Positions 1-34,215 of a stretch of 36,810 bases of DNA are shown here, in pieces. The stretch comes from a virus. Position 1 is the first letter of the stretch. Each line of letters opens with the position of its first letter. Position numbers and translations under genes: made by a program. The DNA is taken from positions 1 through 36,810 of IMG/VR virus record IMGVR_UViG_3300020129_000208; one strand, written 5' to 3'. A model generated the notes under the pieces. It saw only the letters and a list, made by a program, of their open reading frames with translations, did no database searches and was not told the DNA's origin.

Positions 1-72
1 ACTGCACAAGAGCGCAAGAGGCGCTACAAATCCATAGACGGGAAAGGGACATCAAAGAATGGTTCGTCCTAA
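1..72 (+). CDS. 3' end of an upstream plus-strand gene (partial)
   Basis: The first reading frame is open from base 1 to a TAA at 70-72 and would encode the last 23 residues of a protein, rich in Lys, Arg and Gln (begins TAQERKRRYK). Its end overlaps the start of the nuclease gene at 59 by 14 nt, the kind of overlap seen elsewhere in this phage. The start lies outside the window and no function can be assigned. A second frame is also open here, so this call is tentative. Confidence 0.35.
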   Translation, partial: TAQERKRRYKSIDGKGTSKNGSS

Positions 73-1231
73 AAGACTGAGCGCCTCGGCTCTACATGTG
101 GCCAGCCTGTGCTTAAAAAGATACGTTGCGATGAACGTGAACTACGGCTCCGGAGTCAGTAACAACAGTGCTGCGAAGACTGGCACGACTGTGCACTATG
201 CACTGGAGAAGTTCGTACAGGCTGTGCACATCAAGAAAGAGCATGACTGGGACGAAGACTGGCTGATTCACTACCTCAAAGAAGGTTACCAGACTACCTT
301 CCAGAACACTGACTTCCTGACGCCTGAATATCTGGACGCACTCAGCATGACCCAGAATTGGTTCAACACCGCCGACTTCACCGATCGAGAAGTACTCTCA
401 GTCGAAGAGAAAAACTACTACGAGTTAGAGCTCTCCGATGGCACCAGTCTCCCCTTTGCCTACATCTTTGATCGGTGCGACCGAATCATCTCTACCGGCC
501 AGTACTGTGTGGTGGACTATAAGACCAACCAGGCGAACGTCGGAACCGATGAACTCCGCAAAAAGATCCAGGCTCGGTTCTATGCGCTGATCTGTCAGAT
601 CCTGCATCCGGACGCCAAGAGTATCAGGGTGGAGTTTCACATGTTGCGCCACGGCATCACGACCGTGGTCTTTACTCCACAGGACAATCTCGACACCTGG
701 AACTGGCTGCTCAGCGAAGTAGATAGAATCCTGGCCGCGCCACTTGACCCACCGCCCACTCTGAACAAAGAGTGTGGGTTCTGTATGGTGAAGGCAACCT
801 GTCCGGCACTGGTCAACAATATCAACAACGGCGGTGTATTCAGTCTTAGTGTCGAAGAGTTGGTTGACCGGAAAGCACTGCTGGACCTGCAATCCAAAGC
901 TGCCCGAGATGCCAGTATCGAGATCGAGAACATTCTGGGACCGATACTCACTGCCGACGACGCACCCGAGAGCATAGATGGCTATGAGTTCACCGCTAGA
1001 CTCACCGTCCAACAGGTGCGTAATGTGGATGATGAACTTTTCATCGAACTCATCGAACAGTCCGGAGATCCTGAACTGATTCGGGATTACATACCTCGAG
1101 GAAAGATCACCATGGGTTTAGTAGATAAACTATTAAGAGACAAGAACGTAGATCCTGGCATCAAGAAGATCGTCAAGCAACTGATCACCTACGTCGGCCG
1201 CGACCCGAGTGTGACCCTAGAACGGAAGTAG
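59..1231 (+). CDS. Cas4/RecB-like PD-(D/E)XK nuclease with Cys cluster
   Basis: Protein of 390 aa of the PD-(D/E)XK exonuclease superfamily (PDDEXK_1, the RecB/AddB/Cas4 group), which degrades or processes DNA ends during recombination and replication. Seen in order: an SASAL...C18 opening, the helix motif GTTVHYALE (H46, E50), the active-site strands FDRCD (D138) and VVDYKT (D153, K155), a RFYAL motif, and a C-terminal C239-x2-C242-x5-C248 cluster. With C18 these four cysteines match the 4Fe-4S cluster of AddB/Cas4-type nucleases. The ATG at 59 has AAAGGGA about 10 nt upstream. The next gene begins 2 nt after the stop. There is no cas1/cas2 or CRISPR nearby, so this is most likely a phage recombination/replication nuclease and not a CRISPR protein. 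Confidence 0.85.
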   Translation: MVRPKRLSASALHVASLCLKRYVAMNVNYGSGVSNNSAAKTGTTVHYALEKFVQAVHIKKEHDWDEDWLIHYLKEGYQTTFQNTDFLTPEYLDALSMTQNWFNTADFTDREVLSVEEKNYYELELSDGTSLPFAYIFDRCDRIISTGQYCVVDYKTNQANVGTDELRKKIQARFYALICQILHPDAKSIRVEFHMLRHGITTVVFTPQDNLDTWNWLLSEVDRILAAPLDPPPTLNKECGFCMVKATCPALVNNINNGGVFSLSVEELVDRKALLDLQSKAARDASIEIENILGPILTADDAPESIDGYEFTARLTVQQVRNVDDELFIELIEQSGDPELIRDYIPRGKITMGLVDKLLRDKNVDPGIKKIVKQLITYVGRDPSVTLERK

Positions 1232-1677: not shown

Positions 1678-1858
1678 CGTACCCAAAGAACCTACTTGCG
1701 AAGAATGCGACAAGGCCGACTATCCGGCTATCTACCATCTGCACTACACAGTGTGTGCACTGTGCTACACCAGGGCACAAGAGCATCAGTTCCAAAAGCA
1801 GATGCAGGCTTCCAAGAGCACACCCAGCGGGCGGATGAGTAACCTGCGCACCTTCTAG
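1661..1858 (+). CDS. Small zinc-ribbon-like protein (two CxxC knuckles)
   Basis: 65 aa. The ATG at 1661 lies inside the end of the previous gene and is preceded by a GAGAGG ribosome binding site. The protein has CEEC near residues 13-16 and CALC near residues 31-34, i.e. two CxxC pairs 14 residues apart, which predicts one bound zinc ion in a treble-clef or ribbon fold; the C-terminal half is polar and basic. Such small zinc proteins are common in phage early regions, with mostly unknown roles. It is the last plus-strand gene, and its stop overlaps the stop of the oncoming minus-strand gene by 4 bp. Confidence 0.65.
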   Translation: METQTDVPKEPTCEECDKADYPAIYHLHYTVCALCYTRAQEHQFQKQMQASKSTPSGRMSNLRTF

Positions 1859-2031
1859 TCCGTCTCACCTGATGACCGTGGAACGGCTGCGGCTCCTTCC
1901 ATGTGCGCGACACGTTCTGCCAACATCTCGATGCGGTGCCCCATGTGCAGAATAGCTCTTGCCGTGATGACCCAACCGATGAGCACCAGTGACACCGACC
2001 CGGCCCAGGCTACGATGTCTGGAGTACTCAT
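1855..2031 (-). CDS. Small single-pass membrane protein, last gene of late operon
   Basis: 58 aa: MSTPDIVAWAGSVSLV and onward. Residues about 5-27 form one hydrophobic membrane segment, followed by an amphipathic, charged helix (about 28-46) and a polar tail. The ATG at 2031 is preceded by AGGGGAA with good spacing and lies 9 nt after the stop of the haem peroxidase gene, so it is translationally linked to it. One membrane span plus a charged cytoplasmic or external helix fits a holin, an Rz-like or another envelope protein, and its position at the end of the late operon fits lysis, but there is no family match I can name. An alternative is a partner or membrane anchor of the peroxidase. Confidence 0.6.
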   Translation of the reverse strand: MSTPDIVAWAGSVSLVLIGWVITARAILHMGHRIEMLAERVAHMEGAAAVPRSSGETD

Positions 2032-2040
2032 CGGTTTCCC

Positions 2041-3402
2041 CTATCGTTTAGCTACTCCAGCAAACACAAAGATATCAGAAATCGTCGCCTTGTGATCTGG
2101 ACCAAGCAGTACCTGCTCGGCAGAAGCACTTGCTCTGCCGGGAAGACGTTCATTGATGAGAGCGCTAATAAATCCAGCTTTCACGATTGCACTACCGACT
2201 GCTCCTAGCTTTGTTCCACCAGTTTGGGCTTGCGCTTCCGCAAGAATATAATACCAGAGCGGAGTATTGCCAGGGGTGAACCCAAAGCCTGCATCGACTG
2301 GCACCACAGGCACACCTAGTGCCCGGGCAACCGTTTCACCCGAAGGCAGATCGTAGAACATGCCTCGCTGAAGATTGCGGAAAGCGAGCACGTTGGAACC
2401 GGTTGCTTCCGCTCCTGGAATTGGCAGCGAGAACAAACCAGAGCTGATCAGTGTGTCGATCTTGCGGGAGACATTGGTCGGATTGCCGTCAGTGTCAACG
2501 TTGGGCAAGTCCGGAAAGAACTCAGACCAGTCAATCACTAGCTTGGCTGGAAGTGGACTCCCTCCTCGCAGATCCGGCCCGGTGGGCGTGAACACCTGCA
2601 CCTTGCCGCTTGTCTCGTTAAGCACATATGCCTTACGAACAATGGAGTGCCCGAACCGATACGCAGCCACCGAGAATTCCACCGGTGTACCATGCGCCTG
2701 CAGTGTCTTGACTACCAGACGCACTAATGTCGGAGTAGCGACCGGGCCAACAATGTGCGGCAGGAAGTCCGCCAAGATGGCCTGCTTGTAGAATGTCACC
2801 AGTGTCTTGCGAGCATCAGTAAAGCTCAGTCCTGCGTTGATAAGTCGATTGTGTGCCAGCATGAATGCCAACTGAATCTGGTTAATGATTCGGTTCTCGT
2901 CGTTGCGAGCTTCGTTGATGATCGCAGTTCCTGCGACAGTGCGCGGCACGTCCAGTACACCGAAGGCATTGGTGACCAGGAGGAATCGTCCTCGGGCATC
3001 ATAGAACTGCGGACTTCCCACTGGTCCGCCGCCATAGACAGAATCCAGATCGAAGGCAAACGTTCGGCCGTTCGGCACCTGTGTCGGATCTTCAGTATCA
3101 GTCGGAACCGGACTGGCATCCAAGGTCAGGTCATGATCCAGAAACTGTCCGGTGTAGGTGAATCCGCTGGGAATGCCAGGGTTATCGCCTTCGGGCGCGT
3201 TCGGGTCCAGCATAGAGGAGGCCAAGTCCGCCAGTTGCTGCAGTGTCACTCGAGGCGGCGCTGACAGAGGCAGCAGCCGGAAGAAGTTCCCCGGCACCGG
3301 TTGTGTCGGTGCACTCGCAATTGCCGGAGTAGCACTCGCGCCAGTCAGGAGAGCGGCCGATAATCCTGCCGCCAGGAAAGCCTTGCGCACACGATTTGTC
3401 AT
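2041..3402 (-). CDS. Secreted animal-type haem peroxidase
   Basis: 453 aa, full-length member of the peroxidase-cyclooxygenase (An_peroxidase) superfamily, which oxidises halides or organic substrates with H2O2. A Sec-type signal peptide fills residues 1-29 (RVRK, then a hydrophobic core, then AIA as cleavage site). Visible core: GQFLDHDLT with Q86, D89 and distal H90, and D91 as calcium ligand; R166-N-D-E169 with the distal Arg and second haem-ester Glu, 18 residues before HNRL as in myeloperoxidase; YRFGH with proximal H252; NLQRG with N343; and PLWYYILAEA near the end. The Met that forms the sulfonium link in myeloperoxidase is Asn here (N170). It starts 10 nt after the GDPD-like tail gene and is followed by a small membrane protein, so it is a late gene. 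The family is clear; the role in a phage is unknown (envelope modification, peroxide removal, killing of competitors, or a virion part are all possible). Confidence 0.92.
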   Translation of the reverse strand: MTNRVRKAFLAAGLSAALLTGASATPAIASAPTQPVPGNFFRLLPLSAPPRVTLQQLADLASSMLDPNAPEGDNPGIPSGFTYTGQFLDHDLTLDASPVPTDTEDPTQVPNGRTFAFDLDSVYGGGPVGSPQFYDARGRFLLVTNAFGVLDVPRTVAGTAIINEARNDENRIINQIQLAFMLAHNRLINAGLSFTDARKTLVTFYKQAILADFLPHIVGPVATPTLVRLVVKTLQAHGTPVEFSVAAYRFGHSIVRKAYVLNETSGKVQVFTPTGPDLRGGSPLPAKLVIDWSEFFPDLPNVDTDGNPTNVSRKIDTLISSGLFSLPIPGAEATGSNVLAFRNLQRGMFYDLPSGETVARALGVPVVPVDAGFGFTPGNTPLWYYILAEAQAQTGGTKLGAVGSAIVKAGFISALINERLPGRASASAEQVLLGPDHKATISDIFVFAGVAKR

Positions 3403-3412
3403 TCTGACCGCC

Positions 3413-6262
3413 TTAGTATAGGAAGAACGTACAGGGAACCACGATCCCAGACTGATAGATGCCTTGCACCGAAAGTGGAATCAGTCCGAGAGAAGTGTAT
3501 ACTTCGAATCTACCAATTCCATTACTACTACCAAAGTAGTCAACAATCCCCACTGACTCATTGACATTAACCTTGTAATCTCCGTGGGTAGAGAATACAT
3601 CTGTGATGTACAGGTTGTCCTGTATCGGATAGAAGACTCCTAGTACTGAGCCAAAAGAATCGTGAAGTTGAACTAGATCTGCTGGGTGAGCATCCAGCAG
3701 GAACTGTACGAAGAATCCATCTCCGATGCTTGCGCTGTCGATCGGCAGCGGGTCAGTTAAATAGATTGAACTAGAGAACGAATCTTTGAGATCGATCCAG
3801 TCGTTGATCTGCGCGTTGCCAGCATCGACCATGGGCACAACGACTGTGACACCAGAGACCATATAGCCAATCAGAGTGCCGGTAGCGCCACCAGCTACCG
3901 AGGATGCCGCCTTGCTGTCCGCAGTTGTCTTGGCCGCCGTGTTCGGAAGAATGTGCGCCCAGACCGGCTGCGCGTAGGAAAGCACACTGTCCCATGCAGC
4001 CTGTGTGGCTGAGTAGTCCATACCGAGAATATCGAAGTGGGAATGAGTATTTGGAATGTTCGCAGTCTGGTCGCCCTCATAGTAGTACCCCCACACTTTG
4101 TAACCAGATGTTCGCATCACATCAGTATTATTACTGCCGGAAAAGTAGGTCTTCATGATAAACCAGTTAGGTCCACCATAAGACGCCAGTAGTGCCGTGA
4201 GTCCTGCGAGATCCTGCCCACCCTTGTTGTCCACCACGATGACCCGGTTGCCACCGTAAAGAGCCAGTAGCTCGGTCAACTGCATCATCGGCTGACTGCC
4301 GGTGAGTGTGCGCAGTTGACTCAAAGTTGCCCAGGTGTTGGACGGAATATCGATGTCTGTACCAAAGACTCTTCCAGTGGTCTGGTCATGGCTGCCGACC
4401 CAGACGTTATCTACCGTCTTCCAGATCGAAACCTCAAGCGCGAGGTTGGGATTCCAAGCGGCTGCATGCTTGTAGGCATACAGAGTTTCCTCTGGATAGG
4501 AAACCGACCCGCCTCGATGCGCAATGTAGTTGGGAGTATTGGTCAACCAGAATTCAACCGGAGTCGGACCACGATCGGTCAGTGCTACCGAGTCACTAAT
4601 ATCAGCGGTGAGATTGCGGCCCTGAACCAGTGTCATCGAGTCGTGAACTGGAAGATCATCGTTAAGATTCGCGGTGCCAGCAGGAGAAATCAGCGCAACT
4701 GCACGGTCAGTTAGTGCCTCGTTCTCGCTGGCACTGGCTGACCAGTTAATCGGCACAGTAACGGCGTGCAGAACAAACCCAAACCCATGACTTGCCGAAG
4801 AAGCTGGCCCAACAAAGGTGTAGGTCTGCGAGCCCAGCCCCTGACCGATGCTCACTGCCGAGGTGGAGATGCCCATGACATCACGCGGAACAGTGGTATC
4901 TCCTGCCGCACCACCGGCAGAAAGATAATCGTACTGGTTATATGTCAACCCAGTACCAGTCATGGAAACAAAGGTGCCATCATTGGGCGCGGCCAGAGTC
5001 GCCCCATAGAAGGCGAACAGCAAACCATTGGAGACTGCATCCGGAACCGTGAACACAGATCCTGTCTGCAGATGCGATCCCCAGGCAGGCGAGATCACAC
5101 TGAGCGGATCTGCATTGTCTACGTTAGTGACTCGATAGATTCTGCCAATGACACGGCCGCTATGAGGTGTGGCAGCCGAGGTGAAGGTATAGCTAGTTGC
5201 GGTTTCTGCGGCCGCACTGGGAATCACCTTGTAGGCGATCATGTTCAGCCGCGAGTTGGTACCGTTGGACACTGGAGTAATAACAGTCCAGCCTGCAGGT
5301 GGTACATATTCGACGTTTAGTGTAGCCAGTTGGCAGCGAATCACTGCCAGCAGTAGATCAGTATCCTGCACGCCTCCAGGCTTTGCGAGTGTCACGACTG
5401 CGTTGTCACCAGTGGTGACTGCTGCACCAGATCCAGCAATCTGGGTAACCCCAGAACGTATGCTGACACTGATCGAGTCAGACAGATTCTCCGGATTATC
5501 AACCGTGAAACTGCTGCTGCCAGGAGGCACATAAGCGTTTAAGACAACTGCCTGACTGGTGAGCTGGTTGGCGTAAGGCCCGACATAGTTCCAGTTAATG
5601 GTTCCAGGCGACTGTCCGCCATTGATCGGAGCAGTCCAGATACCTGCCACCGTCAGTGATACAGTGTTGACTCCAGGCGTATAGGCGGTAGTGCCTTCAG
5701 TGGCTTCGTAGTACTGCTGTGTCCAGGTAGAGTTCAATGTGTTACTGATACTCGAGAACGCGGTGTTCACCACAGAGGTTGCCTCTGTGTGTGCCACAAA
5801 TAAAATAGAGCCAGCCACTGGCGCGGTAGCGGTAAACGGCAGCGAACAAAAGGGCTGGGTAGAAGAAGACACACCGTACTTGTCTGCGATCGCCGTGACC
5901 GGAGTAGTGGGATCTACTCCACGCGCAACCAGAACATGCACATGGTAGCGCTGACCAGTCGGTGCTCCTGGCTGCACGGCATAGTTGGTAGCAGTTTCTG
6001 CCGAAGCAGATGGAATCGGCTTACCGTAGAAGTAGGTGACTCGCGCAGTAGCAGCAGTGCCGTTCGTACCGTTCGGGTAACCCTGCCCTATGCGAGTCCA
6101 GCCAGCCGGAAGCGTCCAGTCAGAGGTCTGCTGAGTCTGGGCGTTGATGACCATGACAAGGTAATCACCGTCCACAATGCCTGCAGGCTTGGGCACGTTG
6201 AAAGTATTGATGGTGGTGAAGCCAAGAACTGTTGCCCCGATGATCGGGTAAGTAACCGCCAC
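3413..6262 (-). CDS. Tail appendage protein with glycerophosphodiesterase-like domain
   Basis: 949 aa. Residues about 1-250 and 260-515 are two copies of a beta-rich module (each with a D-x-DYLV/DTDLL opening, PPAGW/LPAGWT and a SA-AETAT-Y signature), typical of phage receptor-binding appendages. Residues about 578-810 resemble glycerophosphodiester phosphodiesterase: AHRGG with H582 and R583, PEET (E591/E592), LEVSIWKT (E610) and SHDQTTGR (H625). This fold cleaves glycerol-phosphate diesters such as teichoic-acid or lipid head groups. The usual Glu-x-Asp metal pair is E610-x-S612, so activity may be altered. Short LTDRA and xxSVxxxD repeats flank the domain. The start is GTG with GAGG about 7 nt upstream. 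It is probably virion-bound and acts on the host envelope during attachment. Confidence 0.75.
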   Translation of the reverse strand: MAVTYPIIGATVLGFTTINTFNVPKPAGIVDGDYLVMVINAQTQQTSDWTLPAGWTRIGQGYPNGTNGTAATARVTYFYGKPIPSASAETATNYAVQPGAPTGQRYHVHVLVARGVDPTTPVTAIADKYGVSSSTQPFCSLPFTATAPVAGSILFVAHTEATSVVNTAFSSISNTLNSTWTQQYYEATEGTTAYTPGVNTVSLTVAGIWTAPINGGQSPGTINWNYVGPYANQLTSQAVVLNAYVPPGSSSFTVDNPENLSDSISVSIRSGVTQIAGSGAAVTTGDNAVVTLAKPGGVQDTDLLLAVIRCQLATLNVEYVPPAGWTVITPVSNGTNSRLNMIAYKVIPSAAAETATSYTFTSAATPHSGRVIGRIYRVTNVDNADPLSVISPAWGSHLQTGSVFTVPDAVSNGLLFAFYGATLAAPNDGTFVSMTGTGLTYNQYDYLSAGGAAGDTTVPRDVMGISTSAVSIGQGLGSQTYTFVGPASSASHGFGFVLHAVTVPINWSASASENEALTDRAVALISPAGTANLNDDLPVHDSMTLVQGRNLTADISDSVALTDRGPTPVEFWLTNTPNYIAHRGGSVSYPEETLYAYKHAAAWNPNLALEVSIWKTVDNVWVGSHDQTTGRVFGTDIDIPSNTWATLSQLRTLTGSQPMMQLTELLALYGGNRVIVVDNKGGQDLAGLTALLASYGGPNWFIMKTYFSGSNNTDVMRTSGYKVWGYYYEGDQTANIPNTHSHFDILGMDYSATQAAWDSVLSYAQPVWAHILPNTAAKTTADSKAASSVAGGATGTLIGYMVSGVTVVVPMVDAGNAQINDWIDLKDSFSSSIYLTDPLPIDSASIGDGFFVQFLLDAHPADLVQLHDSFGSVLGVFYPIQDNLYITDVFSTHGDYKVNVNESVGIVDYFGSSNGIGRFEVYTSLGLIPLSVQGIYQSGIVVPCTFFLY

Positions 6263-24152: not shown

Positions 24153-25055
24153 CTACCGATACATTCTACTGATCATCGTCATCAACGACGAGAGGGTATC
24201 CCGAGCTTTCTGACCAGCTTGCTGCTTCTCGGGATTACCACCATCAGCATTGCTGGGCATGACCTCGTTCCACATGGTATCTACCAGCCACGGACCCTTG
24301 TTGGCGATCGCGTTCTGAGCAGCCTGCATGATGCGCCCAGTGTTCGGGTTGCCTTCGTCGTTGGCAAAGTACTGATTGAGCTGGCCCTTGATCGCGTTGG
24401 TAATCCAGTCCTTGTCTGCTTGATTGAGAGGCAAGTCATCATCTCCTGTATCCGGTGGGGGAGTACTACCAGACATGTACTTCTTTACGTTTCCCCGCAG
24501 ATCACCCTGCCAGGACATGTCAATCTTGCGATTGGTCCACTCTCGGTGCATGATTGCCCGATTGTGAGAATAACCCCACTGCATAAATTCTGCAGCGTTG
24601 ATAGCAAAAGTCACATCAAGCAACTTCTGCGGCCAAGGAGTAGCATCCCCTGGATGCTGACATTCAGTACCAGAGTAGGTTTGATTACCGGACATATCCC
24701 CTGAAGCACTGGCATTACCAGGCGGCGGCTGGTCGGCGCGTGTTTTTGCTAGGACAGAACTATTACCAGTACCAAAGTGGTTCATCGGACGAGTGCCGAG
24801 CAGGTAAGCAACTCCGTTCATATCGGTAAACCAGTTGACAACTGATCCATTGGCAAGAGAAGAAACCAAGCTATCTATGTAGCTCTGAGAAGGATTCAAG
24901 GCACAAACATAGTGATGATTGCCGTGACCTTCCGGTCGTCCAGCACTCCAACTACTGCCATTGCTGCGTCCGTAGCAGCCAGAATACTCTACTACCTTGA
25001 ATCCCCACCCACGCATCCTGCCGACGATGCTACGGAAATCATCCTCAACACTCAT
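24153..25055 (-). CDS. Endolysin, N-acetylmuramoyl-L-alanine amidase
   Basis: 300 aa from the ATG at 25055, which has AGGAG 10 nt upstream; a TTG 21 nt earlier is less likely. Residues about 15-190 are an Amidase_2-type domain: HHYVC (H47/H48), a GNQTYSGTECQHPGD loop (H134), and SHNRAIMHREWTNRKIDMSW with H164 and H170, the usual zinc and catalytic region. This cuts the bond between the glycan and the stem peptide. After a Pro/Asp linker (about 195-207) the C-terminal part (about 210-300) is helical and holds a Gly/Asn loop; it may bind the wall, but no known binding motif is seen. The gene lies within the tail module and overlaps the preceding 57-aa gene by 11 nt. No holin is recognised next to it. 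Confidence 0.85.
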   Translation of the reverse strand: MSVEDDFRSIVGRMRGWGFKVVEYSGCYGRSNGSSWSAGRPEGHGNHHYVCALNPSQSYIDSLVSSLANGSVVNWFTDMNGVAYLLGTRPMNHFGTGNSSVLAKTRADQPPPGNASASGDMSGNQTYSGTECQHPGDATPWPQKLLDVTFAINAAEFMQWGYSHNRAIMHREWTNRKIDMSWQGDLRGNVKKYMSGSTPPPDTGDDDLPLNQADKDWITNAIKGQLNQYFANDEGNPNTGRIMQAAQNAIANKGPWLVDTMWNEVMPSNADGGNPEKQQAGQKARDTLSSLMTMISRMYR

Positions 25056-25218
25056 CGTCGGCTGTCTCCTCGCCAAGTCGATGCAGACTTTCGTCGTCCC
25101 AGCGAATGTAGTTCAGTTGCACGCCATCTTGACGTTCCAGGTGTCGCAGGATGGCTTTTTTGATCGTGTCGGTTTCCCGCAGCTTCTCTACTAACTCCCG
25201 TATTTCTCTGTCTACCAT
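25045..25218 (-). CDS. Small charged protein overlapping the endolysin start
   Basis: 57 aa: starts MVDREIRELVEKLRETDTIK and is strongly helical and charged (many Asp, Glu, Arg, Lys), ending in Cys. ATG at 25218 with GAGAGG about 9 nt upstream; its stop lies inside the endolysin N-terminus (overlap 11 nt), so the two genes are translationally coupled. No membrane segment, so it is not a holin. It could regulate or chaperone the endolysin, but no family is recognised. Confidence 0.6.
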   Translation of the reverse strand: MVDREIRELVEKLRETDTIKKAILRHLERQDGVQLNYIRWDDESLHRLGEETADDEC

Positions 25219-25248
25219 CTACAGCTGCCTCTCTCTTGTCGTGCTTAC

Positions 25249-25839
25249 TTACCGAACAAGAGCCTGGTCTTTGTTGGTGATCTCACCCTCGTTGACGGTG
25301 ATCTCCGCGATGTTTCCAGCCACCACGTCGATCGCCAGGCTTCCGATAAAGTCACCAGTGCCGTCTGAGTTGACATCATTCGTCACTGTGACTGCGGCAG
25401 TGCCGACAGGCCCGACTGCAGCAGCAACAGCACTGGCAGATCCTGGGGCACCAGCTTGCGGCTGGACGACGATGATCGACTCATCTGAACTGCGCCAGAG
25501 AACATCACCGGAGATGTCTACCGGGTTGCCGTACTTGTCTTCTCCCGTGATTGACAAGTTGACCTGCTGATCTGCAGTGAGTTGCACAGTGATCTCGCTT
25601 CCTGGGCCTGAAGTCCCTTTTGGACCTGGTTCGGGTTGGTTTGTCTTCTGTGAGACGATACCGATTCGCCAATGAATAGGCGCGACCGGTGAGCTAACAG
25701 TAAGCGTTTTGGTGCGCGATGTGTAGCCACCAGAGGGAAGTTGCCCAGATACCTCTTTGACGGTCTCGGTGTAGACACGGTATCCGTGGTGAGGTTCTGG
25801 CAATTGATCGATAGATACCATCGGAAGAGAAACTACCAT
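25249..25839 (-). CDS. Ig-like domain structural protein
   Basis: 196 aa from the ATG at 25839; the frame stays open to a GTG at 25917, adding 26 residues. I chose 25839 because the extra part covers two hairpins and is rich in Cys and Pro, unlike the rest. No clear ribosome binding site is visible at any choice. Residues about 75-165 form a bacterial Ig-like (BIG2-type) domain (VNLSITGEDKYGNPVDISG, VLWRSSDESIIVV, GTAAVTVTND). Ig domains often decorate phage heads or tail tubes and bind surface sugars. It lies directly downstream of the major tail protein, a usual place for tube-decorating proteins. Confidence 0.65.
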   Translation of the reverse strand: MVVSLPMVSIDQLPEPHHGYRVYTETVKEVSGQLPSGGYTSRTKTLTVSSPVAPIHWRIGIVSQKTNQPEPGPKGTSGPGSEITVQLTADQQVNLSITGEDKYGNPVDISGDVLWRSSDESIIVVQPQAGAPGSASAVAAAVGPVGTAAVTVTNDVNSDGTGDFIGSLAIDVVAGNIAEITVNEGEITNKDQALVR

Positions 25840-25881
25840 ACTCGTGCGGGCCAGAGCTTGACTCACCGGCCCGCACGAGTA
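25839..25881 (-). terminator. Perfect 14-bp stem-loop at the start of the Ig-like gene
   Basis: TACTCGTGCGGGCC (25839-25852) and GGCCCGCACGAGTA (25868-25881) are exact inverted repeats with a 15-nt loop. The last paired base is the A of the ATG at 25839. No T-run follows. It may end most transcripts of the tube gene or hide the start codon of the next gene. Confidence 0.55.
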
Positions 25882-25895
25882 CGTACCGCTCCCGG

Positions 25896-25943
25896 GACAG
25901 GGGATGGGGGCGTGCACACCCTTAACCCATCCCCCGGCCTGTC
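25896..25943 (-). terminator. Hairpin after the major tail protein gene
   Basis: GACAGG and GGATGGG (25896-25908) pair with CCCATCC (25926-25932) and CCTGTC (25938-25943), with a 5-nt bulge and a 17-nt loop. It begins about 20 nt after the tube gene stop. GC-rich hairpins without T-runs can end transcription in high-GC bacteria, or protect the tube mRNA. Confidence 0.45.
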
Positions 25944-25963
25944 ACCATAGCCGGATGCTCCTC

Positions 25964-26971
25964 CTAAGCGATGGTGTCGTCAGCCGAGACGACGACCACC
26001 GTCATGATCGGAGCAGCAGGATCGGGGCGCAGAGCCTCGCCTTCCATGGTGGACTCGAGAATGTCATCACCCGAAACTGTTAGGTTGTAAGGCTTCCAGG
26101 CGAACTTCGGAATGTTGATCGTGACAGACCCGACGATCGCACCTGAAACAAATTCGTAAGTGTTACAGGTGAGAACCAGCGGGTTCTTGGTCGCTAGACC
26201 CGAAGGCAGAGTTGCCGTGGTGCTACCCAAGACCGCCTGGCGCCAGAGTGAATGATCAACTTCCCGAATGCCGAACGAGGCAGTGACTTCCCGGCGCTTG
26301 GGGGTGAGGTCGTTCAGGAAGAACGAACCCAGCCGGAAGTCCGTGTCTTCGAAGTTGTTGTTGATATCGAAGGAGAACGACTTCGCAGGCAGCGCCACAC
26401 CGTTGTAGAGGGCAGTGATGTTCGAGCCCACCAGCAGCGGACTGGAATCGTACTGGCTCCCGGTGATGGTACTGGGTGTGGTGCCCGACTTTCGACCCTT
26501 GGCAATGACGCCAGCGGTACCCATCAAGTACCCCGATGCATCTGCCTCCATGTGGAAGGTGTTGACCACTGCGTCCGTGTACTCGAAGGTATCGAACACA
26601 TTGCCAACCTGCTCTTCGATCGACAGGAATGGCAACTGCGCGGCATCCGAAGGCGTGAAGGTGTTCGTGGTGACACCGGTCGCAGTGTTCTGGGTGGGCG
26701 GGCCAAGTGCCGCTTGCAGCCAGGTCGAGAGGCTCTCCAGCCGGACGTAGAACTCGTAGTCGCCCGAGTTGTTGATAGTACCCAGGTAGGCATCGACAAC
26801 ATCTCGACCCCCACCGATTTCCGGATCTGGAATCAGCAGTTCACGGTTGGTGCCCAGCGCGCCTGTCCGGAGCTTGACAGCAACACCCATGGTGGAGATG
26901 TCAGGTTCATACGTTCCAGGAACCGTCTGGGTACGCAGCAGTACGTGACCTGCCTGGGAAGAGAAACCCAT
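25964..26971 (-). CDS. Major tail protein (tail tube)
   Basis: 335 aa; ATG at 26971 with GAGGGG about 10 nt upstream. Long beta-rich protein with the features of phage tube proteins: MGFSSQAGHVLLRTQTVPGTYEP at the start (compare 'E...GT'), a repeated DFRLGSFFLNDLTPKRREVTASFGI strand pattern, FEYTDAVVNTFHMEADASGYL, and LVLTCNTYEF..GAIVGSVTINIPK near the end. Tail tube proteins form stacked hexamer rings and are among the most abundant virion proteins. Its place after the tail terminator and before the chaperone fits. A C-terminal flexible part (PDPAAPIMTVVVVSADDTIA) may face outward. Confidence 0.8.
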   Translation of the reverse strand: MGFSSQAGHVLLRTQTVPGTYEPDISTMGVAVKLRTGALGTNRELLIPDPEIGGGRDVVDAYLGTINNSGDYEFYVRLESLSTWLQAALGPPTQNTATGVTTNTFTPSDAAQLPFLSIEEQVGNVFDTFEYTDAVVNTFHMEADASGYLMGTAGVIAKGRKSGTTPSTITGSQYDSSPLLVGSNITALYNGVALPAKSFSFDINNNFEDTDFRLGSFFLNDLTPKRREVTASFGIREVDHSLWRQAVLGSTTATLPSGLATKNPLVLTCNTYEFVSGAIVGSVTINIPKFAWKPYNLTVSGDDILESTMEGEALRPDPAAPIMTVVVVSADDTIA

Positions 26972-26972
26972 A

Positions 26973-27386
26973 TTAGTTCACCCCTCCCTGATTTTCTGTG
27001 TGGTCACCCTGAACAACTTCAGAAGATGGAACGTCTGCCTGACCGGTGGTCGGAACGGCCGGTGCACCCTCGGTAGACTCACCTGGGTTCTCCGGCAACT
27101 TCGGAGCAACCACAGTCCCGTTGATCGCCGCCTGAGTGGCGTCGATCTGATCCTGTAGCTCTTTGTTTTCACGCGCAGATGCTTGCTTCTCAGCTTCGAA
27201 GCTGCGCTTCTCTTCGGAAAGTTGTTGCGCGATGCGCAATTCTTCCCGCTTGAGTTGCAGGAACGTCTGATCGTTCTCACGATCTTTTGCGGCCTGCATC
27301 CTTTCACGTTCAGCGGCAGCAAGTTGATCGCGTTGCGCCTGAACGGCATCGATCTGTGCTTGCACCTCTTCGTCACTACGGGACAT
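26973..27386 (-). CDS. Coiled-coil protein between tail terminator and tube genes
   Basis: 137 aa from the ATG at 27386 (GGAG 10 nt upstream; 11-nt overlap with the previous gene). Residues about 5-90 form a long heptad-type coiled coil rich in Gln, Glu, Ala, Arg and Lys (EEVQAQIDAVQAQRDQLAAA and so on); residues 95-137 are a Pro/Thr/Gly-rich disordered tail. No family is recognised. Possible roles are a tail assembly factor or a minor virion protein; its stop is 1 nt before the tube gene start. Upstream extension of the frame to 27503 is ruled out because it runs through the tail terminator gene. Confidence 0.7.
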   Translation of the reverse strand: MSRSDEEVQAQIDAVQAQRDQLAAAERERMQAAKDRENDQTFLQLKREELRIAQQLSEEKRSFEAEKQASARENKELQDQIDATQAAINGTVVAPKLPENPGESTEGAPAVPTTGQADVPSSEVVQGDHTENQGGVN

Positions 27387-27867
27387 GTTTTTCAGTCTCC
27401 ATCCAGAACTCGAGTGTTCCAAGGTAGTACCAGTCTCCTGCAAGCTGGCCCTGCAGGTAGTTCCGATTGCGAACACCCCTGCGCTGAGCTCTGCGACTGA
27501 CACCTGAGAGACTCGAGGCGGTAGTCGTTGATAATGCTAAGCCCAACGCCTGGTTGTTGTAAAGGATGTCCTCTATCAGACTGATCAGCATGGAGTGATC
27601 TCGAGAACCTTGTTGCTGATCTGCATCCTTGATCATTCCCTGAATACCAATGATCCATCTTTCCAAAGTCGGCCCGAAACTATTTCCAATCTCGTAGGAA
27701 GTGGTTATGTCTTCTACCTTTATTGGATAAACCCCGATGCACTGCACGTTGTCCATCGCAGTCAAGGGCCTCTGGTGAACCGGTATATCTGGATCTATGT
27801 TCACCAGAGCTTCGGCAATCGTATTCACCACATTAGTGGGAAACTCTTCGAGAATCGAGTGGATCAT
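27376..27867 (-). CDS. Tail terminator protein
   Basis: 163 aa; ATG at 27867 overlapping the previous stop by 4 nt. Layout alpha-beta-beta-alpha-beta typical of gpU/Neck-type proteins: helix MIHSILEEFPTNVVNTIAEAL, strand VQCIGVYPIKVEDITTSYE, TLERWIIGIQGMIKDADQQQG, helix HSMLISLIEDILYNNQALG, end strand GDWYYLGTLEFWMETE. It caps the tail when the set length is reached and joins it to the head neck. Place between the gp10-like neck protein and the tube gene supports this. Confidence 0.7.
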   Translation of the reverse strand: MIHSILEEFPTNVVNTIAEALVNIDPDIPVHQRPLTAMDNVQCIGVYPIKVEDITTSYEIGNSFGPTLERWIIGIQGMIKDADQQQGSRDHSMLISLIEDILYNNQALGLALSTTTASSLSGVSRRAQRRGVRNRNYLQGQLAGDWYYLGTLEFWMETEKHVP

Positions 27868-28376
27868 ACGGTGTACCCACCCATACGATCTTTAACCCAA
27901 TTCTCCAACCGAGTAGTGATCAGACCCAAATCGGTCTCATTTACTGCCAGGGCTGGCCGGGCAGGAGTGGATGCTTTAGGGCCACCTTGCTGCGAGGTGG
28001 TGAATTTGTCTGCTGTTAACCGATCGTGCGGAGCAGTCCCCGGATAGGTGTAATCAGCTCCTGCGCGCCCGATCCCGATCGCCGGGTGACCCTCTTGTAG
28101 CCAGCGAAGAAACGCACCCGTCCGGACGTTGATCGGATGCATATCGCCGTACCCGAGAGAACGCCGGATCACCTGAGTGGGATAGGCGAGAGGTGCCCAG
28201 GGACCAGAAGCGTCATCGCCTTCTTGCTTGAATCTTGAATCAATCCGGTCGATAACCGTTTCATGAGCATCAGTTGCCAGAAACACAGCCAGCGAAGTGG
28301 GTGATACGGCAGCCGATGCCATGGCAATTGCTGCATCAACACTTGATTTTTCTACAACAAACGAGATGCTAACCAC
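27864..28376 (-). CDS. Head-tail joining protein (gp10/virion-morphogenesis-like)
   Basis: 170 aa from the GTG at 28376, which has GAGGA 6 nt upstream and overlaps the preceding stop by 8 nt; the frame extends to 28559 but that part lies over the connector gene. The core IDSRFKQEGDDASGPWAPLAYPTQVIRRSLGY...VRTGAFLRWL has the F..EG....W.PL...T..R......L..TG.L pattern of HK97 gp10-like and Mu gpG-like virion morphogenesis proteins, which help connect head and tail. The C-terminal end is basic with a NWVKDRMGGYTV finish. Confidence 0.7.
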   Translation of the reverse strand: MVSISFVVEKSSVDAAIAMASAAVSPTSLAVFLATDAHETVIDRIDSRFKQEGDDASGPWAPLAYPTQVIRRSLGYGDMHPINVRTGAFLRWLQEGHPAIGIGRAGADYTYPGTAPHDRLTADKFTTSQQGGPKASTPARPALAVNETDLGLITTRLENWVKDRMGGYTV

Positions 28377-28866
28377 CCGGCATCCTCGGCCATAAGCCCC
28401 AACGAGTCGGCTTGGCGGTGAATCCGTTCGGTGAAGCAACCTTGTAAAAATCGTCCACTCGAGAAGTAGGGTCGGTGTTGCTGGCCAGAATCTGAACAAA
28501 GTACATATCAGCAGCTGGGTTGATCGTTGCACCAGGCAGAACACCCTGCCCGGAAACAATCTGATTTAGAGCTGCGAGAGCCATGTTGATCATCTGACGA
28601 GCAGCCGCATGAAGGTTGTCAGCTTCACGGGTTAATGTCACTGCGATGATGATTCTGCCAGATGCGATCTGGGCATTGCACTGCTGAAGAAACAGTTTGG
28701 TGCGGCGGTTCTCGGGGATATCCACCACTTCGATGGGGGTGATGTAGGTGTCACCCAGAATGATGTCTATCTCATCGGCGGCAGAGTCAATGTACTTCTG
28801 AGTATCGACCACAGTGTTGACAGGTAGACCCTCAAGAAGTAGATCAGCCTCTACACAATATGCCAC
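28369..28866 (-). CDS. Head-tail adaptor (gp6-like connector)
   Basis: 165 aa, GTG start. Mostly helical: a first helix with ADLLLEGLPVNTVVDTQKYI, a DSAADEIDIILGDTY helix typical of gp6/gp15-type connector proteins (helix with an 'a...id..lg..Y' pattern, followed by 'P......P'), ENRRTKLFLQQCNAQIASGRI, and AAARQMINMALAALNQIV. It forms the ring below the portal. It is the first gene after the strong hairpin that follows the capsid gene. Confidence 0.65.
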   Translation of the reverse strand: MAYCVEADLLLEGLPVNTVVDTQKYIDSAADEIDIILGDTYITPIEVVDIPENRRTKLFLQQCNAQIASGRIIIAVTLTREADNLHAAARQMINMALAALNQIVSGQGVLPGATINPAADMYFVQILASNTDPTSRVDDFYKVASPNGFTAKPTRWGLWPRMPGG

Positions 28867-28889
28867 TATGTCTCACTTCTTTTACCTGG

Positions 28890-28932
28890 AGAACGGCCCC
28901 CTAAAGGCTGCATACCTTTAGGGGGCCGTTCT
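28890..28932 (-). terminator. Strong 18-bp perfect hairpin after the major capsid gene
   Basis: AGAACGGCCCCCTAAAGG (28890-28907) and CCTTTAGGGGGCCGTTCT (28915-28932) are exact inverted repeats with a 7-nt loop. It lies between the capsid gene stop (28950) and the connector start (28866). There is no T-run on either strand. It is likely a transcription attenuator or mRNA-stabilising stem that raises capsid over neck-protein levels. Confidence 0.75.
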
Positions 28933-28949
28933 GCTCGATCCCCGACAGA

Positions 28950-30125
28950 TCAGGAAAGGACATCCATACTGTAGGTGTACTTCATGTACGGGAACACCGG
29001 GAACGCCTTGATGCCAGATCCACGGACGGTCATCCAGGGATCGACCGTCTCCTGTTCCCACTCGTAGAAGCCGGACTGCCAGTTGCCTTCCGCGTGCGGC
29101 GAGGTGAGCATCTTTCCGAAGCCCATCTCCGTGTCATCGATCTGACTCAGACCGATCGTGTACGGCTGATTCGGATCAGGATTCGGGTCCGGCAGCAGCA
29201 GGATCGACTTCTCAGTGGTGAATCGGTTGTTCGTGATCGTCGTACTGCCGATCGGCCGGGTCTGGTACACCGAGTCGTACACAGTGAACTTGACCCCGGT
29301 GGATGCCTCCAGCACACGCAGTGCAGCATCCATCGTGTAGCCGGGCAGAATGTAGTTCATGTCCAGCGGCGCGCTGGGAGAACCGCCGACCACCGGCAGC
29401 CCGACCGCTGCCCAGAACCGGTTCGAGTGCCAGATGTTGTTGACGACCTTCTGGCTGGTGATCGCCCGGTTCAATGTGATGTGATATCGAGCCAGTGCAG
29501 CCGCCTGCACCGCCTTGATGTCACCGATCGGATCGAAGGTCGTGCCGGAATCCCAGAGTCCCGACGCAGGAACGATGGCATCCTGATCGGCAGGCCGACC
29601 CCAGTCGATGGTGAACTGGATCTTGGTGTCGTTGTACGCGAGCTTGCCGGTGTCCAGGCTCGTCATGATGAGCCATTCGAGCCGATTGTCCAAACTCCGC
29701 TTGCGAGTTGCATCATCTCGAGCCAGCCTGCGCTGGAATGTCTGCACGGCCGTTTCTGCCGAGTTCAGCGTCAGACCGATGTTCTGTGTACTGGCCGCCA
29801 GGGTGAGATCACTCCGGTACCGAGTCACATCGGATGCAGTGTACTTGTTCTTGAACGACCAGTCGATCACGTTCGCGCGACCGATGCCGTTCAGGAACTG
29901 ATCGAACTGCATGAGTTTGGCTTCCGCGTCTTCTGCGCGGGCCGGAGCCAGTACATCCTGGAGACCAGAAGTGATGTACTCGAAGACAACCTCATCGGTC
30001 GGCACACTCAGAAACGGCACCAGACTTAGACCGATATGATCAAGAGGTGGCGGTACGTCACGGATGATGCCGAGCGAAACTTCCTTGCGGATCAGACGAT
30101 CCTGGCCAATTGCAGCAGTAGCCAT
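28950..30125 (-). CDS. Major capsid protein (lambda gpE-like)
   Basis: 391 aa; ATG at 30125 with a strong AAGGAGG site, the best in the window, which fits the most abundant virion protein. Matches the Phage_cap_E pattern: an N-terminal IIRDVPPPLDHIGLSLVPF, FEYITSGLQDVLAPARAEDA, the sequence TFQRRLARDDATRKRSLDN, then FTIDWGRPADQDAIVPASG LWDS with DPIGDIKAVQAAALARY after it, and a C-terminal WMTVRGSGIKAFPVFPYMKYTY. The gpE family has the HK97 fold. It is paired with a gpD-like decoration gene 18 nt upstream, as in lambda. The order protease, decoration, capsid is the lambda order. Confidence 0.9.
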   Translation of the reverse strand: MATAAIGQDRLIRKEVSLGIIRDVPPPLDHIGLSLVPFLSVPTDEVVFEYITSGLQDVLAPARAEDAEAKLMQFDQFLNGIGRANVIDWSFKNKYTASDVTRYRSDLTLAASTQNIGLTLNSAETAVQTFQRRLARDDATRKRSLDNRLEWLIMTSLDTGKLAYNDTKIQFTIDWGRPADQDAIVPASGLWDSGTTFDPIGDIKAVQAAALARYHITLNRAITSQKVVNNIWHSNRFWAAVGLPVVGGSPSAPLDMNYILPGYTMDAALRVLEASTGVKFTVYDSVYQTRPIGSTTITNNRFTTEKSILLLPDPNPDPNQPYTIGLSQIDDTEMGFGKMLTSPHAEGNWQSGFYEWEQETVDPWMTVRGSGIKAFPVFPYMKYTYSMDVLS

Positions 30126-30143
30126 GTTTGCCGTACCTCCTTA

Positions 30144-30596
30144 TCAGTCGAAGATGAGATTGCCGAGACGAGGCAGTCCGACCATCGCGGTGATGGTTGC
30201 TGCTTGGATCACGATGGGTGCGCCACCCGCGTTGTACTCGATGCACTTGGTGGAATCAACGACACCACCGTACAGAACACCGACTTCCTGATCGCCGTCC
30301 ATGAGTTGATACGGCAGGAAGGTGAGCACCACGCCGACGATGTTGGCTGCAGTCTGGCGACCGTCAGCCACACCAGCCTGATAGACACCGACCTTGCCTG
30401 AGTTCGGTCCAGAGGTTGCTACGGCCACCACGGTTCCAGGCTGCAGAACTTTCTGCACGAAACCGTCGATCGTCACTGGCGGATGCGTTGCCGAGTCAAT
30501 GGTGAAACTGTCAACGAGCATCCCCCGAGTCGAACGAAGAAATTCGTTCCGACCGAAAGGCGTAGTGGTACCTCCGCCCGGGTTCCAAAAGGGCAT
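30144..30596 (-). CDS. Head decoration protein (lambda gpD-like)
   Basis: 150 aa; ATG at 30596 with AAGGCAG upstream. The sequence VLQPGTVVAVATSGPNSGKV, GVADGRQTAANIVGVVLTF and DGDQEVGVLYGGVV is characteristic of the HDPD/gpD family, small trimeric proteins that clamp the expanded capsid at threefold sites and stabilise it against DNA pressure. The length is near that of lambda gpD (110 aa) with an N-terminal extension. It lies between the protease-scaffold gene and the capsid gene, as in lambda. Confidence 0.85.
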   Translation of the reverse strand: MPFWNPGGGTTTPFGRNEFLRSTRGMLVDSFTIDSATHPPVTIDGFVQKVLQPGTVVAVATSGPNSGKVGVYQAGVADGRQTAANIVGVVLTFLPYQLMDGDQEVGVLYGGVVDSTKCIEYNAGGAPIVIQAATITAMVGLPRLGNLIFD

Positions 30597-30638
30597 CTCT
30601 TACTGCCTTTCGTTCGATGAGAAGGATGGTACCTGAGA

Positions 30639-31502
30639 TCACTCCCAGGGAAGATTCAGTTCTGTCGCAAGAGCACTGCCCTTTCGCCAGGCATTGCTGT
30701 TCTTGACAATCACTTCGTTCTTGGTGATGCGCAACTGAGCAACAACTTCCTTGTGGACGTTGTACTCTTTCACCTTGGCTTCTTGCGCTTGCGACTGAGT
30801 GGGGCTGGTCTGTCGGGCGAACAGAGGCAATGGGGGCTTGGCCTCTTCGAGGGCAATCCATTCATCGAACTGTGCGCGACCCAAGCTTGCAGCGTATTTC
30901 AGTGTGGCGTCGAGTGATGGTGCCATGATGATTCCGGACTTGGCAAGAGCGGTGACACGATCTTTCTTTTCTTTGTTGAAGGCGGCGACATTGCTGGCCT
31001 GATACTGATTGATCAGCGCAGCCCCTGCCTCGGGAGAAATCTTTCGACCACCGATGGTGAAGTGGTTACCTTCCCACTTGGCGAAGATAGGTCCTTGCGC
31101 ACGTTCGGTCACCGGCACAGGCTCTTTCTCTTCTTCGTCTTCTTCTTCCTGTTCTTCGGCGTCTGGATCGACCACTCCGATCGGGCCGACTGCGCTCTCA
31201 GTGACCGGTGGCATGCCCTCGCTGTCGTCGCTGTCTTCGTCGTTCCCTGCCAGGGGTGCGAACACCGGAACTTCCACCGACCCAGGGGCTCCTACCGGAG
31301 CCTGGGTCGGTGGCGGATTGGCAGGATCAAGTGTGCCGCCATCGTTTTCTCCGCTGCCATCGTCCGGTTGCACCGGCGCAGGATCGAGCGGCGGGCCAGG
31401 CACCAGGGGCGGCGCGGGAGGAGCGGGCGGGCCGGGGCGCTCCGGTGCGTCTTCGTAGTCGTCATCGGGAGAGGAGAATTGGGCGGTATTTTTCGATGCC
31501 AT
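30639..31502 (-). CDS. Nested scaffold protein, internal start
   Basis: Within the protease gene an in-frame ATG (Met216) at 31500-31502 is preceded by AAGGAG with a 9-nt gap, one of the best ribosome binding sites in the window. It would yield a 287-aa protein starting MASKNTAQFSSPDDDYED that lacks the protease domain. This is the same layout as lambda gene C with nested Nu3. The start codon directly follows the protease domain boundary. No separate scaffold gene is seen elsewhere, so the nested product is the best candidate. Confidence 0.7.
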   Translation of the reverse strand: MASKNTAQFSSPDDDYEDAPERPGPPAPPAPPLVPGPPLDPAPVQPDDGSGENDGGTLDPANPPPTQAPVGAPGSVEVPVFAPLAGNDEDSDDSEGMPPVTESAVGPIGVVDPDAEEQEEEDEEEKEPVPVTERAQGPIFAKWEGNHFTIGGRKISPEAGAALINQYQASNVAAFNKEKKDRVTALAKSGIIMAPSLDATLKYAASLGRAQFDEWIALEEAKPPLPLFARQTSPTQSQAQEAKVKEYNVHKEVVAQLRITKNEVIVKNSNAWRKGSALATELNLPWE

Positions 31503-32147
31503 GTGCTTGTGCTCCTTCGGTCCCCGCTCGATTGCGAAGTCAGGATTCGATTTTGAAAAGGCGCCGTTCAGGCCCTCGACTGCTGGAACATCTACGTACG
31601 CGAACCCCATGAAAGTCGGGGTGTAGGAAGCCTCCGAGTTGGTGACGAAGGTTCCAATCTCTGCCGAACGATTCCTCCACAAACCGCTATCGATCTTTGC
31701 CTGAGCTTCAGGATCGAGAATGTCGTAATCAGCCAGAAGATAATCATACTTCTGACCGTCAACCGGCGAGGCCATCTTGACGTTGGTCAGGCTCGAGACA
31801 TAGCCGATCACACTGTCCAACGGGTCAGACAGAAAAGAGCCATGGCCCTTGCGCACCGGGACATCTGCGAAAATTTCCTGATCTTTCAGGAAATTGAAGT
31901 GCTGCACCATCTGAGCGGTGTGCATACCAGTCCACTCAGTCTGTTCCCCCCAAGAATCCCGAAAAGTTCCAGAGCGAAAAACCGGCACACCTTCGAACCG
32001 CAGCGAGGTAACTGTGCTACCGTCAGCCTTTTTGTACTCGCGGCGGTACTGTTTTTGTGGCTTGGCAAACTGACCATTTGACAAAAATTGCCTGGTCGTT
32101 GCCGGAACCAATTCGCCCTTGGGAGGGGACACAAGAAGTGTGCTCAT
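30639..32147 (-). CDS. Prohead protease fused to scaffold
   Basis: 502 aa. Residues about 45-200 look like a capsid maturation protease of the Mu-I/ClpP-like type: VPVRKGHGSF with H102, GYVSSLTNVKM, YDYLLADYDILDPEAQ, and NRSAEIGTF with S161 as the likely nucleophile. Residues about 215-370 are a long Pro/Gly and Asp/Glu-rich linker (PPAPPAPPLVPGPP, then runs of Asp and Glu), and residues about 385-502 form a charged helical part, the probable scaffold core. A nested start at 31502 encodes the scaffold alone. Scaffold is cleaved by the protease during maturation. The C-terminal half is the only scaffold candidate in the window. Confidence 0.8.
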   Translation of the reverse strand: MSTLLVSPPKGELVPATTRQFLSNGQFAKPQKQYRREYKKADGSTVTSLRFEGVPVFRSGTFRDSWGEQTEWTGMHTAQMVQHFNFLKDQEIFADVPVRKGHGSFLSDPLDSVIGYVSSLTNVKMASPVDGQKYDYLLADYDILDPEAQAKIDSGLWRNRSAEIGTFVTNSEASYTPTFMGFAYVDVPAVEGLNGAFSKSNPDFAIERGPKEHKHMASKNTAQFSSPDDDYEDAPERPGPPAPPAPPLVPGPPLDPAPVQPDDGSGENDGGTLDPANPPPTQAPVGAPGSVEVPVFAPLAGNDEDSDDSEGMPPVTESAVGPIGVVDPDAEEQEEEDEEEKEPVPVTERAQGPIFAKWEGNHFTIGGRKISPEAGAALINQYQASNVAAFNKEKKDRVTALAKSGIIMAPSLDATLKYAASLGRAQFDEWIALEEAKPPLPLFARQTSPTQSQAQEAKVKEYNVHKEVVAQLRITKNEVIVKNSNAWRKGSALATELNLPWE

Positions 32148-32195
32148 TTGAGTACCGGACCTTACTTGGTTACAGGGCTTGTTGTCCAGTGGGGA

Positions 32196-32462
32196 CTATG
32201 CGACTTTTTCTTCAACAAGCACAGCTTGGTTAGGCTGAGTGATCTTGACATTGTGCCAACGCAAGCAATCTCGGCACTGAAGTTTTACTGTGCCGGTTGC
32301 GTAGATGTTTCCGAAGATCCGATGGCCCTTATAAACCTTGATGTGCACATACAGAGAACCTCTGGCATCTATCCCGTAGGTAGCCAGCAGGGGCTTGAAC
32401 GTGCACAGTTCACAGTGGAGACTCTTCTCGTTCTTCTCGCTCTTATCAACAGTCTCACTCAC
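32196..32462 (-). CDS. Com-like zinc-ribbon protein
   Basis: 88 aa, GTG start overlapping the portal stop by 8 nt. Two CxxC pairs at C17/C20 (HCELC) and C63/C66 (LQCRDC, within GTVKLQCRDCLRWHNV) predict one zinc site; the form G-x-V-x-x-x-C-x-x-C-x-x-W resembles the Mu Com-type small zinc fingers, which bind RNA and regulate translation. It lies between the portal and protease genes, where similar small zinc-finger genes occur in Mu-like head modules. A role in translation control is possible but unproven; it may equally be an assembly factor. Confidence 0.6.
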   Translation of the reverse strand: MSETVDKSEKNEKSLHCELCTFKPLLATYGIDARGSLYVHIKVYKGHRIFGNIYATGTVKLQCRDCLRWHNVKITQPNQAVLVEEKVA

Positions 32463-34194: not shown

Positions 34195-34215
34195 GGGTAG
34201 GAAAGCCCTCTCAGG

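Follow-up and report, generated by a model that had tools for sequence, protein, structure and literature searches.

We found that the open reading frame (ORF) at positions 2041 to 3402, on the minus strand, of IMG/VR virus record IMGVR_UViG_3300020129_000208 (a stretch of 36,810 bases, called the window here) is an intact haem peroxidase gene of the peroxidase-cyclooxygenase superfamily, with haem binding and activity predicted from the sequence and a structure model. It belongs to a recurrent, phage-enriched clade that is absent from sequenced phages and that an earlier note on this DNA did not recognise. Family, complete active site, purifying selection, late-operon position and recurrent export signals were all computed, and the features of the gene itself are these:

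2041 to 3402, minus strand: haem peroxidase, predicted to be exported, 453 amino acids (ATG at 3402, stop at 2041), from Pfam, alignments and the structure model
3313 to 3402, minus strand: predicted signal peptide, about residues 1-30 (MTNRVRKAFLAAGLSAALLTGASATPAIAS), Sec or degenerate twin-arginine translocation (Tat) type, from sequence, hydropathy, the low-confidence N-terminus of the model and the signals in relatives
3130 to 3150, minus strand: distal motif GQFLDHD, residues 85-91 (Gln86, ester Asp89, catalytic His90, calcium Asp91), from alignments and the motif definition in PMC4420034
2893 to 2907, minus strand: RNDEN motif, residues 166-170 (Arg166, ester Glu169, and Asn170 at the sulfonium Met position), from alignments
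2644 to 2685, minus strand: proximal motif PVEFSVAAYRFGHS, residues 240-253 (haem ligand His252), from alignments and the family profile
2365 to 2376, minus strand: proximal Asn343 to Arg346, from alignments

The protein matches the Pfam family PF03098 (An_peroxidase) above its gathering cut-off (E = 1.3e-6; 27.7 bits vs 25), and no NCBIfam or PHROG family was found above cut-off. All the signatures that Zamocky et al. (PMC4420034) give for the superfamily are present, namely the distal G-Q-X-X-D-H-D, the distal R-X-X-E and the proximal His and Asn residues. In alignments with bacterial and phage relatives, Q86, D89, H90, D91, R166, E169, N170 and H252 are invariant, and position 343 is Asn throughout except for Asp in three distant phage copies. 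Alignments and PF03098 thus agree with the earlier note, which had described a complete animal-type haem peroxidase with every residue from Q86 to N343 in place. Its claim that these landmarks are spaced as in myeloperoxidase holds within the motifs but not between them, the distal His and Arg being 76 residues apart here vs 132 in DdPoxA of Dictyostelium (His101 and Arg233; PMC5787809). It had also pointed out that Asn stands in for the sulfonium Met that marks myeloperoxidase (family 1); Asn170 is indeed there, but it represents no special loss, since it is invariant in the clade and in the bacterial copies. An AlphaFold2 model (mean predicted local distance difference test score 73.9, predicted template modelling score 0.81), of moderate quality that suffices for the fold and not for pocket geometry, matched structures of this superfamily first, whereas a model unlike a peroxidase was what the note had named as a refutation. 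The top Foldseek match is the cyanobacterial peroxidase 8s6c (E 3.9e-13, probability 1.00, template modelling (TM) score 0.60), followed by DdPoxA (6erc), myeloperoxidase and lactoperoxidase, and the family profile, run against the PDB, finds these four and eosinophil peroxidase as well. The matches of the model among predicted viral structures were limited to a giant-virus haem peroxidase and an alpha-dioxygenase. The protein contains no cysteine.

Export signals were scored by a home-made rule (a positive start, a hydrophobic core and small cleavage-site residues, from any in-frame start). By this rule, of the 22 viral-contig copies in the clade that were tested, 21 carry a signal, which in 11 includes a twin-arginine motif; among cellular copies a signal was seen in 12 of 89. 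Because the rule is home-made and the copies are related to each other, the counts are a strong trend rather than a formal test. The sole clade copy lacking a signal is L011, the start of which is not settled. Since some clade copies have Sec signals and others Tat signals, export itself seems, from these sequences, to be under selection. The Sec signal peptide that had been assigned to the window protein stands as an export signal and not as to type, which may be Sec or degenerate Tat (VRKAFL).

An alignment-guided scan of IMG/VR gave 37 related loci, with close relatives on about twenty other uncultured viral contigs; it superseded a single-protein scan of viral contigs that had found no relatives because its peptide patterns were too specific. 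By contrast with these contigs, tblastn with the window protein and two phage relatives matched none of 50,697 sequenced phage records, and no phage enzyme of this family was found in the literature searched (subscription papers lay outside that search), in line with the statement in the earlier note that no characterised phage enzyme of this type was known. The portal family phrog_113, which matched 0 of 14 control genomes, occurs in eight of the related records (L012, L013, L015, L021, L024, L028, L031 and L034), always, with the orientation of each locus taken into account, on the same strand as the peroxidase gene; L024 and L028 are near-copies, which leaves seven independent portal-bearing records. 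Large terminase matches were found in L011 to L015 and, weakly, in L017 and L035. PhageMin_Tail was not found in the related records, which is uninformative. The neighbours of the peroxidase gene vary: it follows the portal region in L013, has a head-module gene on either side in L012 and L015, stands just ahead of the major capsid gene in L024 and comes right behind a neck gene in L021. The gene has been inserted or moved several times, yet was kept within the late module. Viral status is by IMG/VR alone, with no hallmark gene confirmed, for L016, L018, L019, L020, L022, L029, L030, L032, L033, L038-L040, L042 and L044. These occurrences suggest that phages turn repeatedly to oxidation outside the host cell, driven by peroxide.

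In a maximum-likelihood tree of 76 rows, the window peroxidase pairs with L011 (support 99/95) within a 24-row clade (100/99) composed of 22 viral rows and two copies from actinobacterial metagenome-assembled genomes (MAGs; L048 and L049), and the sister group consists of actinobacterial chromosomes. L048 adjoins a penicillin-binding protein gene and L049 adjoins Lhr, both ordinary chromosomal surroundings. Because these two nest inside the clade, exclusive viral monophyly is not claimable; a constraint keeping the viral rows together was not rejected (approximately unbiased (AU) test, p = 0.45). Homologues occur in 33 of 396 Actinomycetota genomes and, the genome of L048 itself excepted, all score far lower. 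The cellular copy nearest by identity (51%; L051:1948-3383, from a Mycolicibacterium MAG) is split over two frames, by a frameshift or as a pseudogene, and lies near a KatG-type peroxidase gene. The best reading is that an actinobacterial peroxidase gave rise to the clade and then spread among phages, with occasional exchange with hosts. The ratio of nonsynonymous to synonymous substitution rates (dN/dS) is 0.18-0.37 between pairs of phage copies, and the protein has therefore been kept for its function.

The surroundings of the gene in the window are as follows:

3408 to 3414, minus strand: Shine-Dalgarno-like AAGGCGG, overlapping the tail-gene stop and 5 nucleotides ahead of the peroxidase ATG
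3413 to 6262, minus strand: tail-module protein, 949 amino acids, with a glycerophosphodiester phosphodiesterase (GDPD) domain; the late gene directly upstream
1855 to 2031, minus strand: ORF of 58 amino acids with one N-terminal hydrophobic stretch, unlisted, beginning 9 nucleotides after the peroxidase gene
59 to 1231, plus strand: Cas4/RecB-type exonuclease, convergent with the late block and syntenic with gp40 of Gordonia phage Hotorobo
24153 to 25076, minus strand: endolysin-like gene (phrog_880, E = 2.7e-18), between the tail tube and chaperone genes

The late block lies on the minus strand, and its order follows Hotorobo (Montyvirus) gene by gene, through small and large terminase, portal, protease, scaffold, major capsid, connectors, tail tube, assembly chaperone, tape measure and minor tail proteins. 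The portal is nearest to those of Gordonia and Tsukamurella phages, and on this sequence kinship the host is very probably an actinobacterium. As the earlier note had it, the peroxidase gene belongs to a late operon, starting 10 nucleotides past the stop of the same-strand tail gene, and no separate promoter candidate was found above chance. It is not quite the last gene of the block, since the 58-residue ORF, a possible small membrane protein or holin for which family searches gave no match, comes after it. Its synonymous codon usage (z = 0.3) agrees with that of the remaining genes in the window (-3.3 to 4.9) and its flanks are syntenic with Hotorobo on both sides; because of this codon usage and synteny, and because related phages carry the gene, we regard it as resident in the phage. 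The 949-residue protein may itself be an envelope-degrading tail enzyme, with similar domains in Microbacterium and Streptomyces phages, and its gene has no near relatives in IMG/VR. In Hotorobo, the interval from the tail genes to the exonuclease contains the holin and lysin A genes, a slot that the peroxidase occupies here. That the peroxidase has replaced lysis genes is an idea weakened by the endolysin-like gene, the lysis function being located elsewhere in the operon; this placement is unusual, as the lysis genes of Hotorobo come after the tail genes. A contig filed under a different IMG/VR sample number (L137) shares 99.95% identity over 9,751 base pairs, covering 24991 to 34741 only, and from it the same phage species probably recurs in a second metagenome.

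With the gene so placed, one could envision a late, exported enzyme that oxidises small substrates with hydrogen peroxide (H2O2) outside the cytoplasmic membrane, for which the likeliest benefit would be to damage the host envelope or neighbouring competitors by oxidation around lysis; we judge the chances of this proposal to be about even. Haem loading, catalysis, substrate and benefit are here what we infer. The peroxidase would be made late alongside virion proteins, and its signal peptide would take it across the host cytoplasmic membrane. As elsewhere in the superfamily, haem b would be held with His252 below and His90, Gln86 and Arg166 above, and Asp89 and Glu169 could form haem ester bonds autocatalytically. 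The sulfonium link raises the redox potential of myeloperoxidase; Asn170 instead of Met rules out such a link, and chloride oxidation is therefore not expected. Compound I could then oxidise iodide, thiocyanate, bromide or phenols, with DdPoxA as the model (PMC5787809), in the cell-wall space, and also outside once the cell has lysed. The intact active site, the fold, dN/dS, the gene's own ribosome site, the same-strand portals and the export signals support this proposal, and the secreted relative DdPoxA oxidises iodide and thiocyanate, both of which soil contains, rapidly and keeps fruiting bodies free of bacteria (PMC5787809). Several considerations weigh against it: catalytic activity is a prediction from sequence and model; the envelope would need a source of H2O2; a Sec-exported copy would have to acquire its haem in some way; a peroxidase may equally protect; and 14 control genomes and a home-made signal rule are limited tests. 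A phage clade that ties the gene to late expression and export would allow infections by phages that have the gene to be compared with infections by phages that lack it. If oxidants are made, they would be a chemical weapon or lysis aid new for phages.

Alternatively, the same exported enzyme could rid the envelope of H2O2 or other peroxides and shield the infected cell or the released virions from oxidative stress; infection would then involve a redox contest at the envelope. Every peroxidase consumes H2O2, the sulfonium Met associated with chloride oxidation in myeloperoxidase is missing, and a secreted peroxidase of a Liberibacter prophage that scavenges reactive oxygen species (ROS) is a precedent of purpose (PMC12628843, PMC11747508). 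However, catalases or peroxiredoxins would manage this without the co-substrate problem, late timing would leave little time for a benefit to the host cell, and the superfamily mostly oxidises halides or thiocyanate (PMC4420034), so that we consider this main rival rather improbable. We find it unlikely that the gene serves lysogenic conversion, as a fitness gene useful to the lysogen on a temperate phage. Although the family is present on bacterial chromosomes and the chromosomal copies L048 and L049 fall inside the clade, the gene lies within a late operon that offers it no promoter candidate of its own, late-module location recurs across several phage types, and no integrase was seen in the window, though half of the genome may be missing.

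A virion-attached enzyme acting on entry (the earlier note had listed attachment to the virion) would be in keeping with the adjoining virion genes and with a separate lineage on T4-like viral contigs. There, proteins of 1363-1409 amino acids (L045:7236-11327, L046:1902-5993 and L047:7236-11465) fuse a full-length canonical peroxidase domain (PF03098, 6e-116; best PDB match 8s6c, 5.5e-75) to an immunoglobulin (Ig) domain, encoded between a baseplate-like match and a T4-type clamp loader. This lineage is an independent acquisition, and its proteins could be tail-linked, unlike the window protein. Virions are assembled in the cytoplasm, whereas the window protein and its clade bear export signals; predicted export makes packaging into virions unlikely, and we hold this role to be very improbable. 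Lastly, an assembly join to host DNA, which the earlier note had named as a possible refutation, or a decaying gene can be dismissed as extremely improbable, for although no independent contig crosses the peroxidase junction (L137 stops before the gene), codon usage, Hotorobo synteny on both flanks, the ribosome site overlapping the upstream stop, related phages carrying the gene and intact catalytic residues all speak against it.

Returning to oxidation outside the cytoplasmic membrane by a late, exported enzyme, a wider and quite tentative generalisation would be that myeloperoxidase-type oxidative weapons, exported or tail-linked, exist in diverse actinobacterial phages and, independently, in T4-like phages, where they would oxidise or halogenate host or rival envelopes around lysis and give viruses a counterpart to the peroxidase system of neutrophils. 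The kind of enzyme is known; its viral, late and exported use appears undescribed in the literature searched.

As to known systems, none of the phage records searched matched the window protein meaningfully. SC2_gp095 of the Liberibacter prophage (PMC12628843, PMC11747508) is likewise a phage-encoded, secreted peroxidase, but it is secreted non-classically and acts as a prophage effector on plant ROS, and it is likened here by description only. The haem peroxidase of Orpheovirus (BFVD A0A2I2L5A1) is viral and has the same fold; however, Orpheovirus is a giant virus of eukaryotes, and its protein shares 13% identity and no phage link. Myeloperoxidase and lactoperoxidase share the fold and the Gln-Asp-His-Asp, Arg-Glu and His-Asn active site, whereas the window protein has Asn170 for the sulfonium Met, shorter inter-motif segments, no disulfides and about 15% identity to them. 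DdPoxA (PDB 6erc, PMC5787809) has fold, catalytic residues and secretion in common with the window protein, but it has disulfides and lacks the ester Asp, present here as Asp89, and identity over the structural alignment is 17%. Bacterial copies annotated as heme peroxidase family protein have the same active site and, on plasmids, up to 41% identity (17 across at least 80% of the protein); they differ in mostly lacking an export signal and in lying outside phage operons. These bacterial copies are probably short peroxicins, family 5 of the superfamily (PMC4420034), and the short single-domain length and bacterial kin of the window protein fit that family.
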